From an uncultured Prevotella sp. (GTDB lineage: Bacteria > Bacteroidota > Bacteroidia > Bacteroidales > Bacteroidaceae), in the NCBI GenBank assembly GCA_939792625.1, contig CALNFG010000003.1:1-32309 (forward strand): a DNA stretch of 32,309 bases. Direction: 5' to 3'. Made by a program: the position numbers and the translations under genes. The notes under the pieces were generated by a model. It was not told where the DNA came from. It was given only the letters and a program-made list of their open reading frames with translations, and did no database searches. Numbering within the stretch: the stretch's first letter is position 1; every line of letters starts with the position of its first letter. This document shows positions 7,774 through 31,773 of the stretch, piece by piece.

Positions 7774-7889
7774 AATGCCGCCGTCTGACAAATGTACTGT
7801 ATTCATAACGCAACATTTTTGCGCAAAAATAGTACGAAAATGCCGGACTGACAAACAAAACAATCAAAATGTTTTTTGAAAAGAAATTA

Positions 7890-8033
7890 AAGAAGTTAGA
7901 GAAGTTATCACTCGCTTCGCTCGTCAGAAGTTAAAGCCATTACCTTTCGCGGATGACATCCTGCAAGACATTTGGCTTTAAATTCTTAGCCCTCGCAAGC
8001 GGGCGATAGCTCCTTTAACTTCTCTAACTTCTT
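7890..8033. repeat. Inverted pair of the dispersed repeat
   Basis: AAGAAGTTAGAGAAGTTA (7890-7907) / TAACTTCTCTAACTTCTT (8016-8033), perfect 18-bp arms. The right half matches 1-75. Confidence 0.8.
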
Positions 8034-8241
8034 GAAAAAGCCCTTACCTCTTTATAACTTTCCTCACGTTGCTGCTGTTTTTCACAATGAGGTATCCGTC
8101 CGTGTTTCTTTTTACACGGCAAAGATACGGCAAACCGCTTTATGCATCCATACACAGATTACAGAAAGAAATACCTGTTTTACCGCCCCACCATCCTACC
8201 TGCAGACCTTCCGAAAAACGACCTGTTATCACCCGTTTTGC

Positions 8242-8343
8242 AAAAGCTAACCTTTCGCTCTTCAAAAGGTTATCTTTTACCGGCCAAAAGGTAAGCTTTT
8301 GCAAGCCAAAAGGTTACCTTTTGGCCGGTAAAAGATAAACATC
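8242..8343. repeat. 22-bp-period palindromic repeat array 1 (5 units)
   Basis: Units start at 8242, 8264, 8286, 8308 and 8330. Contains a perfect 25-bp inverted repeat, 8270-8294 / 8314-8338. Confidence 0.9.
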
Positions 8344-8603
8344 TGACAATCAGCCACTTATAAAACCACAATCTCAACACCCGCACCATGCGCGCACAAG
8401 CCTGCCGGAACAGGATGAAAGACCGTAGGCACAGCTCCACAGACTATAAACAGAATCTACAACATTGTAACAATTCAGAAATACTAACGTAAAGGCATAT
8501 TCACCCGAGTGAGACATCGTTGTCACGCCGTTGGCCGAACTTTGTACCCGAAAACGAAAGCATACACAGATATACGAAAAATCAAACCAGCAGACAACGA
8601 AGA

Positions 8604-13590: not shown

Positions 13591-13775
13591 AGCAGACGAG
13601 CAGACAAGTAACAAGCAGACAAGGAGATTTGTTTCACTGTGAGGCATTTCTCCTTGTCTGCTTGTTTACTTGTCTCCTTGTCACTAAAACAAATCTCCTT
13701 GTCTGCTTGTTACTCGTCAACTTGTCACTAAAGCAAATCTCCTTGTCTGCTTGTTTACTTGTCTGCTCGTCTGCT
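13591..13775. repeat. Complex intergenic repeat: three ~45-bp tandem copies plus inverted flanking copy
   Basis: CTCCTTGTCTGCTTG at 13650, 13695 and 13739. Left arm 13591-13631 is the near-perfect reverse complement of 13734-13775. Confidence 0.85.
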
Positions 13776-13780
13776 TTAAT

Positions 13781-14284: not shown

Positions 14285-14424
14285 TTGTGTTTACTTGTTT
14301 TGATTACAGATGCAAAAGTAATCAAAAATTCCATACATCCGCACAGCACCGCCTGATGATTTTACCGGTCTCTTGGCCGCGACATTCAACCTGTCGCTGA
14401 ACGGCATGAAAAAAGCCGTTTTGC

Positions 14425-14514
14425 AAAAGGTAAGCTTTCGGCCTCCAAAAGGTAAGCTTTCACCTTGTAAAAGGTAAGCTTTCGCAGCCTAAAAGGTAAG
14501 CTTTTGCAAAACGG
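14425..14514. repeat. 22-bp-period palindromic repeat array 2 (4 units)
   Basis: AAAAGGTAAGCTTT at 14425, 14447, 14469 and 14491. Flanked by CCGTTTTGCAAAAG (14416-14429) / CTTTTGCAAAACGG (14501-14514). Confidence 0.95.
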
Positions 14515-14584
14515 ATGAAAACATGGCCGTCCGCGTCTCAGCACAATGCAGACAACCATCTGATTATCAACAGAATACAGACAC

Positions 14585-27655: not shown

Positions 27656-27736
27656 GAAAGGTAAGCTTTTGACGTGCCGAAGACGGTCTTTGACGAGACA
27701 AAAGGTCATGTTTTGCAAAGCAAAAGCTTACCTTTC
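27656..27736. repeat. 22-bp-period palindromic repeat array 3 (4 units, one degenerate)
   Basis: Units at 27656, 27678, 27700 and 27722. Perfect 16-bp inverted repeat GAAAGGTAAGCTTTTG (27656-27671) / CAAAAGCTTACCTTTC (27721-27736). Confidence 0.85.
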
Positions 27737-30900: not shown

Positions 30901-31686
30901 GCTTTCCTTGACACGCTGATACGTTACGGACAGTTATACCAACAGGAGAAGAACGCCGCACAGAACTCACTCTTCGGAGGAGTTGACGATGTTGACATCG
31001 CCACACCGCCAATACCCGAAGGCGAGCCCTGGAGCAGCATTGAGAAACTGAACAGGGAGCGCGACCTCGTCGGAATATACCTGTCGGCCCACCCGCTTGA
31101 CGATTTTGAAGTGATACTCAACAACTTATGCAACACTCACTGCTCGGAACTGGCCGACAAGCAGGAGCTTTCAAAGAAACAGGAAGTACTGCTGGGAGGC
31201 ATCGTCACGATGGTACGCAGCAAATTCACGAAAACCGGCAAGCCGTGCGGATTTGTCACAATCGAAGATTTTGAAGGATCGGGTGAACTGGCTTTATTCG
31301 GCGAAGAATGTGGCAAGTGGAAAGGCATGCTCATAGAGGGCTGCACCGTTATGATAAAGGCGCAGTTCGTGCAGCGCTTCCGCGGCAGCGACATGATGGA
31401 AATGCGCATCACCGACATACAGTATCTGCAAACCGTAAAAGACAACCAGATAGAACGTCTCACCATAACTCTTGACGCCGCAAAGCTCGATGACACCACC
31501 GTGTCAGACCTCGTGACGGTGATAAAAGACAGTCCGGGCACGACACAACTGTACTTTCAGGTGAATGACGGACTGGCAAACCGCCCGTTCACCCTGCACA
31601 GCCGCACCGGTAAAGTAGACGTATGCAAAGAACTGATATCATTTATAAAGAACAATGAGGCACTGAGTTACAGGATTAATTCATAA
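27979..31686 (+). CDS. dnaE: DNA polymerase III subunit alpha
   Basis: PHP start YVHLHVHTYYSILDG; VGPGRGSAAGSVVAYCLGIT; LPDIDTDFDDDGR; C-terminal OB-fold region. Confidence 0.97.
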   Translation: MQDYVHLHVHTYYSILDGQASVKRLVDKAIADGMRGMAVTDHGNMMGIKEFFNYCKKKNAELKEQGKPEFKPILGCEMYVARRTKADKVKDLGDQGGYHLIVLAKNYKGYKNLIKLVSRAWVDGFYMRPRTDRADLETYHEGLIVCSACIAGEVPAKILKGDIAGAEEAAQWYKRVFGDDYYLELQRHEVKDPRIRANRETYPLQQKANKVLMEFSKKYGIKLVCTNDCHFVDEENAEAHDRLLCLSTNKDLDDPNRMLYSKQEWFKTRAEMNEVFADVPEALANTCEVLDKVESYSIDHSPIMPFFPIPEEFGTEEEYRKRFTEEQLYDEFTQDENGNVVLSREEGEKKIQKLGGYDKIYRIKFEADYLAKLAYEGARKLYGDPLSEEVEERVKFELYIMKTMGFPGYFLIVQDFINSARDELGVMVGPGRGSAAGSVVAYCLGITKIDPIKYDLLFERFLNPDRISLPDIDTDFDDDGRGKVLDWVTRKYGADKVAHIITYGTMATKLAIKDVARVEKLPLEESNRLCKAIPDRLPDGMKMNLTNAIKCVRELREAEASPDPRLHETIEYAKMLEGNVRNTGIHACGTIICRDPISDWVPVSTADDKETGKKLLCTQYEGSVIEETGLIKMDFLGLKTLSILKEAVENIRLTTGDVIDLDTIPIDDPETYKLYSEGRTIGTFQFESAGMQKYLRELHPTVFEDLIAMNALYRPGPMDYIPQFIERKRDPSKITYDIPCMEKYLKDTYGITVYQEQVMLLSRQLAGFTRGQSDTLRKAMGKKLIEKMNHLEGLFYEGGKKNGYKHEVLHKIWEDWKKFASYAFNKSHATCYSWVAYQTAYLKAHYPAEYMAANMSRNYTNIAEITKLMDECKAMGIKTLGPDVNESRQKFSVNKQGAIRFGLAAIKGMGSAAAEAIISEREKNGPYKDVFDLAQRVNLAACNRKCFESLALSGGFDSFNIRRENYFGKNAKGDAFLDTLIRYGQLYQQEKNAAQNSLFGGVDDVDIATPPIPEGEPWSSIEKLNRERDLVGIYLSAHPLDDFEVILNNLCNTHCSELADKQELSKKQEVLLGGIVTMVRSKFTKTGKPCGFVTIEDFEGSGELALFGEECGKWKGMLIEGCTVMIKAQFVQRFRGSDMMEMRITDIQYLQTVKDNQIERLTITLDAAKLDDTTVSDLVTVIKDSPGTTQLYFQVNDGLANRPFTLHSRTGKVDVCKELISFIKNNEALSYRINS

Positions 31687-31773
31687 TTCACAATTCATAG
31701 TTCATAAATGGGCAGGCGCATAAAGTTTTTCCGCAAGGCAATTATGAATTGTGAATCATGAACCATGAATTAA
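31676..31773. repeat. Inverted AATTCATAATTCACAATTCAT-type repeat
   Basis: TTAATTCATAATTCACAATTCATAGTTCATAAATG is opposed by CAATTATGAATTGTGAATCATGAACCATGAATTAA. Confidence 0.75.

Follow-up and report, generated by a model that had tools for sequence, protein, structure and literature searches.

Short repeat arrays with a fixed 22-bp geometry were found between genes at about 100 copies per megabase in an uncultured Prevotella. The geometry was genus-wide and the letters of the repeat were specific to each species, a pattern that suggests a so far undescribed set of protein-binding sites along the whole chromosome. No description of such arrays was found in the literature, as covered by open-access papers. 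The arrays were traced from a window of 32,309 nt, the whole stretch of DNA that was analysed (contig CALNFG010000003.1 of an uncultured Prevotella sp.). The wider analysis covered 1.24 Mb (1.236 Mb) of the source genome (G000, 78% complete) and 665 kb of contiguous sequence from a relative ~80% identical to it at the DNA level (G102).

In the window, the core AAAAGGTAAGCTTT occurred in exact copies at positions 14425, 14447, 14469 and 14491 (array 2; Table 1), which bore out the four cores and the exact 22-bp period reported by an earlier, sequence-only reading of this DNA. The spacers between them were CGGCCTCC, CACCTTGT, and CGCAGCCT. The inverted repeat that had been said to bound the block was also present. 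Its 14-bp form was peculiar to array 2, and across the genome only the short ends G-N-TTTTGC and GCAAAA-N-C were common to the arrays. Scored against the array model R1, array 2 reached 75.4 bits, the second-best in the genome among the matches listed. The same reading had placed the architecture at two more loci of the window, and both were recovered, one intact and the other degenerate. In the window, 16 sites fitted the proposed consensus AAARGNTWNSYTTT, where chance alone would give 0.11. Across the entire draft genome it matched 276 + 300 times (both strands), compared with 5–7 for the reversed control.

Table 1. Positions of the arrays and of their associated features in the window.
Feature	Position	Strand	Description
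Array 1	8242..8322	.	Intact, four family units between divergent genes; degraded fifth unit at 8330-8344
B box of array 1	8335..8361	.	Around CTGACAATCAG; centre 25 bp from array end
Array 2	14425..14505	.	Units 14425-14439, 14447-14461, 14469-14483, 14491-14505; three 7-nt spacers; period 22
Left arm, closing inverted repeat of array 2	14416..14429	+	CCGTTTTGCAAAAG; contains the shared end GTTTTGC
Right arm, closing inverted repeat of array 2	14501..14514	+	CTTTTGCAAAACGG
B box of array 2	14552..14578	.	27-bp palindrome, two apparent inverted IHF-type half sites around CTGATTATCAA; ~59 bp from array end (1 bp away from phase 14+44)
Array 3	27656..27736	.	Degenerate, with four units, upstream of dnaE; those at 27656, 27700, 27722 good

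The unit was better defined as a 15-bp palindrome, RAAAG-N5-CTTTY, followed by a 7-nt spacer. In the 1.24 Mb of the source genome, 131 pairs of perfect units lay exactly 22 bp apart; the others were separated by 44, 66, 88, or 110 bp, with a single exception at 29 bp. The spacing was thus locked genome-wide, as had been proposed for array 2, and the preference for 22 bp and its multiples was almost absolute. Perfect cores led to 100 arrays, of which 72 consisted of exactly four units (a length of 81 bp). Within the unit, the feet (AAAAG/CTTTT) were conserved at >90% at nearly all positions, and the variable positions lay in the core interior and mid-spacer. The earlier description of the spacers as free to vary held for the central base, which carried 0.00 bits, and failed for the outer two bases on each side, which were constrained. 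The information content was symmetric around the centre of the core, as in the site of a dimer. Rare core interiors recurred as reverse-complement pairs within one array, in any combination of units (34 vs. 7 in the source genome, p ~1e-5), and this pairing was weaker in the relative. Correction of quasi-palindromes at replication could give rise to it even if structure is not under selection.

A four-unit profile detected 120 arrays in the source genome (97.1/Mb) and 65 in the relative (97.7/Mb), and none in shuffled DNA. The loci of the window therefore belonged to a family, as had been suspected. The arrays formed a quasi-regular lattice, with one array every 4–20 kb and a median of ~8 kb. 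When the same number of arrays was placed randomly in the gene gaps of the same contigs (1000 simulations), ~37 of the 113 pooled neighbour intervals were expected to be shorter than 3.9 kb, and none was. The separate counts were 0 of 54 in the source genome (null mean 21, minimum 13) and 0 of 59 in the relative (null mean 16, minimum 9). The shortest intervals were 3983 and 3936 bp and the medians 8.1 and 8.7 kb, respectively, and the coefficients of variation (0.43 and 0.47) were lower than in every simulation. In the near-complete genome G010, where array detection was incomplete, 1 of 71 intervals was below 7 kb vs. 13.7 expected. Ten loci of other relatives with at least two arrays had a median interval of 8.8 kb and a smallest one of 3.4 kb. 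Contig ends of the source genome were twofold enriched near arrays (20 vs. ~10). The lattice was not made by assembly breaks, because contigs of 90–176 kb in the relative gave the same result. Insertion immunity or the loss of close pairs could lie behind the lattice, rather than a job that depends on spacing.

None of the 185 arrays in the two genomes overlapped a gene called by our home-made gene caller, which agreed with the view that array 2 is non-coding. In the first set, 42 arrays lay in tandem, 30 in divergent, and 14 in convergent gaps, in line with the available gap length. Arrays in tandem gaps were at least 47 bp from the downstream starts. Together with the gap classes, this indicated that the arrays are united by neither promoter control nor termination. 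The orientation of arrays towards upstream gene ends was 22:7 in the source genome but 5:5 in the relative, and the bias was not reproduced. An array after the thioredoxin gene downstream of dnaE was seen in several relatives, at a frequency not clearly above chance.

When the flanks were aligned, a phased 27-bp palindrome, RYAAYnnnYTGAnnnTCARnnnRTTRY (B box), was their sole shared feature beyond the short ends. It stood beside about half of the arrays, on one side only, and the other half had no recognizable B box; the background rate in other gene gaps was 3%. Its centre was 13 or 14 bp from the array end in 28 arrays, 25 bp in 13, 36–37 bp in four, and 47 bp in three. By its letters, the B box reads as a pair of inverted IHF consensus sites. 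Its centre falls at 14+11n bp from the array, in steps of one helical turn, and is thus helically phased. The half-site logo, W A T C A R N N N N T T R Y (WATCARNNNNTTRY), was the same in both genomes. It corresponds to the IHF consensus of E. coli, WATCARNNNNTTR, which the B box contains as two inverted copies; the sites preferred by the Prevotella proteins may differ. Because the B box score was derived from these array flanks, the conservation of its columns is in part circular; the W and A columns at the centre lay outside the scoring, and the IHF consensus played no part in finding the box. No link was found between the side of the B box and GC skew or local gene direction, and a signal of the replication strand was rejected. 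DNABII proteins were encoded in all 20 Prevotella genomes tested. At G000:C13:9196-9760, a small DNABII gene adjoined the gene for a ~440-aa protein with an N-terminal DNABII domain, and the same pair was present in most Prevotella tested. This pair is a candidate for the binder of the B box.

A scan of public genomes anchored on dnaE assigned the window to Prevotella. Beyond the two genomes, the geometry was kept and the palindrome changed. The core interiors were GTAAG/GTTAC in the source genome, GCCGC/ACGGC in G102, CTATG in G012, and CGGCT in G108. Intergenic four-unit repeats in 80 loci of relatives showed a sharp peak at a period of 22 (45 segments in 31 loci), compared with eight segments at 21, three at 23, one at 24, and none at 25–41. 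The units were GAAACGGGCCGTTTC in locus L209, AGTACATGGGCCTTGTACT in L219, and TGAATGGCATGTTCA in Xylanibacter muris, with wholly different letters. All three arrays of L209 had a B box, 21–22 bp from the centre of the last unit. Cultured carriers include Prevotella corporis DSM 18810 (locus L259). Some single-locus arrays were weak, those in Bacteroides among them. The even spacing, the IHF-type box and the change of palindrome from one species to another were beyond the reach of the earlier, sequence-only reading. A palindrome that switches between species within a constant geometry would imply that a binding protein coevolves with its sites.

The best explanation, to which we give an even chance, is that the arrays are landing sites of a multimeric protein which, with a DNABII bend, organize the chromosome. 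A multimeric, sequence-specific DNA-binding protein would land on each array as four dimers, two helical turns apart on the same face of the DNA. At about half of the arrays, a symmetric IHF/HU-type (DNABII) site on one side, at whole helical turns, would add a bend and build a larger nucleoprotein complex, and such complexes would recur in gene gaps every 4–20 kb along the chromosome. The likeliest role would be chromosome organization (barriers of supercoil domains, loading of gyrase or condensin, or nucleoid anchoring) rather than control of single genes. A multimeric site on one DNA face had already been suggested for array 2; it remained the best reading and was strengthened by the 11-bp phasing of the flanking IHF-type palindrome. 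Plain protein binding does not predict the reverse-complement pairs of interiors, which counts against this explanation. A wider proposal, which we advance tentatively, is that Prevotella and allied Bacteroidaceae possess an undescribed chromosome-organizing system. In it, a fast-evolving palindrome-binding protein and a homodimeric IHF-like protein would act on four-site arrays at near-regular 4–20 kb, with the specificity re-invented in each species and the 22-bp geometry and the lattice conserved.

The strongest rival to protein landing sites is a mobile element with local exclusion. The arrays would be non-autonomous repeats similar to MITEs or BIMEs, with the palindromes as sites of a transposase or accessory protein and the B box as an IHF site at the element end; insertion into gene gaps with ~4 kb exclusion by target immunity, which occurs in some transposons, would be followed by divergence. 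We consider this possible but rather unlikely. None of seven collinear orthologous gaps shared an array between the source genome and the relative, each having one in a single genome only, and in the two gaps compared in detail the array-less ortholog was ~200 bp shorter. This indicated that sites come and go with density and geometry maintained, and such turnover suits a mobile element too. Synteny breaks were commoner at arrays (6 of 33 array gaps collinear vs. 36 of 75 control gaps, in counts raw for gap size), and the one-sidedness of the B box speaks for mobility as well. Two exact four-unit arrays, AAAGCATAGCTTT, were carried 20.8 kb apart by a tailed provirus with tape measure and head maturation protease genes (IMGVR_UViG_2558860931_000002; L283:6507 and L284:6883), each right at a gene end. 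Against mobility, nearest-neighbour arrays differed at 15.9 of 81 positions, close to the 17.4 of unit-shuffled arrays, yet their feet were highly conserved. The arrays are therefore not recent copies of each other, one locally duplicated pair excepted, and recent MITE copies were ruled out. The aligned flanks had in common brief end sequences and, on one side, the phased B box, which was the sole conserved part of the flank positions. Two indels were seen in comparison with the relative, with boundaries blurred at ~80% identity; no terminal inverted repeat common to the arrays and no duplicated target could be made out. The Y1/RAYT transposase (PF01797) was absent from the array carriers G000, G102, G411, G012, and G108, of which G000 was 78% complete, a caveat for that genome, and the other four 97–99%.

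A self-recognition or DNA-uptake sequence, by which the arrays would mark a species' own DNA, would account for both the changing letters and the even spacing, and is improbable. The letters are species-specific within a fixed geometry. Even spacing has also been described for the uptake sequences of H. influenzae, which were significantly evenly spaced according to Karlin et al., as cited in PMC1939737. Uptake sequences are short, non-palindromic, and often inside genes (PMC1939737), whereas the arrays were 81 bp long, in no called genes, and far rarer. The sequences of Pasteurellaceae and Neisseriaceae resemble the arrays in their species dialects and, as far as the account in PMC1939737 goes, in their even spacing; they differ in that they do not form arrays. 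The arrays lay in a genus for which we know of no uptake bias.

Slightly less probable still is a structured RNA, or a terminator of transcription in both directions, that arises when units pair with each other. The fold of array 2 beat those of shuffled sequences on both strands (z -3.9 and -5.1), the closing inverted repeat was followed by six T on the minus strand, and the rare interiors often formed reverse-complement pairs. However, the consensus fold of 37 arrays reached -1.2 kcal/mol and its covariation term was -0.02, pairing between spacers was overall not above that of shuffles, and no Rfam model matched in the window or locally at E<=1. The structured RNA that had been suggested for array 2 was thus not supported. 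The suggested 3'-end element fared no better, since arrays in divergent gaps were about as common as gap length predicted (30 of 86). The 11-bp phasing and the kilobase lattice would also be left unexplained by an RNA. A passive minisatellite grown by slippage, or intrinsic curvature from phased A-tracts, would fit the tandem units and the AAAA/TTTT every 11 bp in the source species and is scarcely credible, as the number of units was mostly fixed at four, the units within an array differed, and curvature was disfavoured by the units of relatives that lack A-tracts and keep the 22-bp period, such as those of L209 and L219.

Among known systems, the closest in make-up was BIME-1/RIB of E. coli, an interspersed, intergenic, high-copy combination of REP palindromes and an IHF site (PMC2817692), for which a role in chromosome organization has been proposed (Boccard and Prentki 1993, as cited in PMC2817692). 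The arrays are likewise intergenic and of high copy number, with several palindromes and an IHF-type site, the latter by sequence match, and in broad terms the two would work in a similar way. They differ in having four units at a fixed 22-bp period and a symmetric pair of IHF-type sites outside the palindromes at 11-bp steps. The GTAG/CGTC tag was absent from their aligned ends and flanks, and several carriers had no Y1/RAYT transposase; identity with REP/RAYT elements was rejected on these two grounds. No report of quasi-regular kilobase spacing was found for BIMEs in the literature examined. Within the same order, Bacteroidales, BrickBuilt of Porphyromonas gingivalis is a MITE/minisatellite of 23-nt spacerless units, with 19 copies per genome and a leader and tail that carry IS5-like terminal inverted repeats (PMC4596501). 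It shares with the arrays the short tandem units between genes, whereas the arrays have a period of 22, variable spacers, ~97 copies/Mb, and no terminal inverted repeat in common that could be found. With no RAYT, and BrickBuilt differing in unit length, copy number, and structure, no named MITE or REP family was found to match.

The sites of matS/MatP, SlmA, and Noc are also palindromes scattered over the chromosome, each bound by a dedicated protein. They are single short sites within a domain, whereas the arrays are four-site, occur everywhere, and have species-specific letters. Iteron origins, such as that of R6K with its 22-bp iterons and an IHF site, resemble the arrays in placing several sites at intervals of two helical turns next to an IHF site. 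However, there is one iteron origin per replicon as against ~100 arrays/Mb, and the array units are palindromic.

Chromosomal landmarks at regular intervals are rare among bacteria. If the nucleoid is organized by the arrays, their sequence would give access to supercoil domains in a genus that is dominant in gut and rumen and whose chromosome architecture has hardly been studied. If they are mobile, a repeat family with strict local exclusion and no visible copying would likewise be unexplained. The switch of palindrome within a fixed geometry makes the coevolution of protein and site directly testable.

Other repeats also occurred in the gene gaps of the window. At 7880-8035, an inverted repeat of ~155 bp, AAGAAGTTAGAGAAGTTA ... 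TAACTTCTCTAACTTCTT, was of another type and is possibly a MITE; the relative had a similar element upstream of a carbonic-anhydrase-like gene. A 44-bp tandem repeat with 8-bp TCTACTTG sub-repeats lay between two genes at 13591-13776, and two 7-bp tandem repeats, TAATTCA and AATTATG, were located between dnaE and a thioredoxin gene at 31677-31772.
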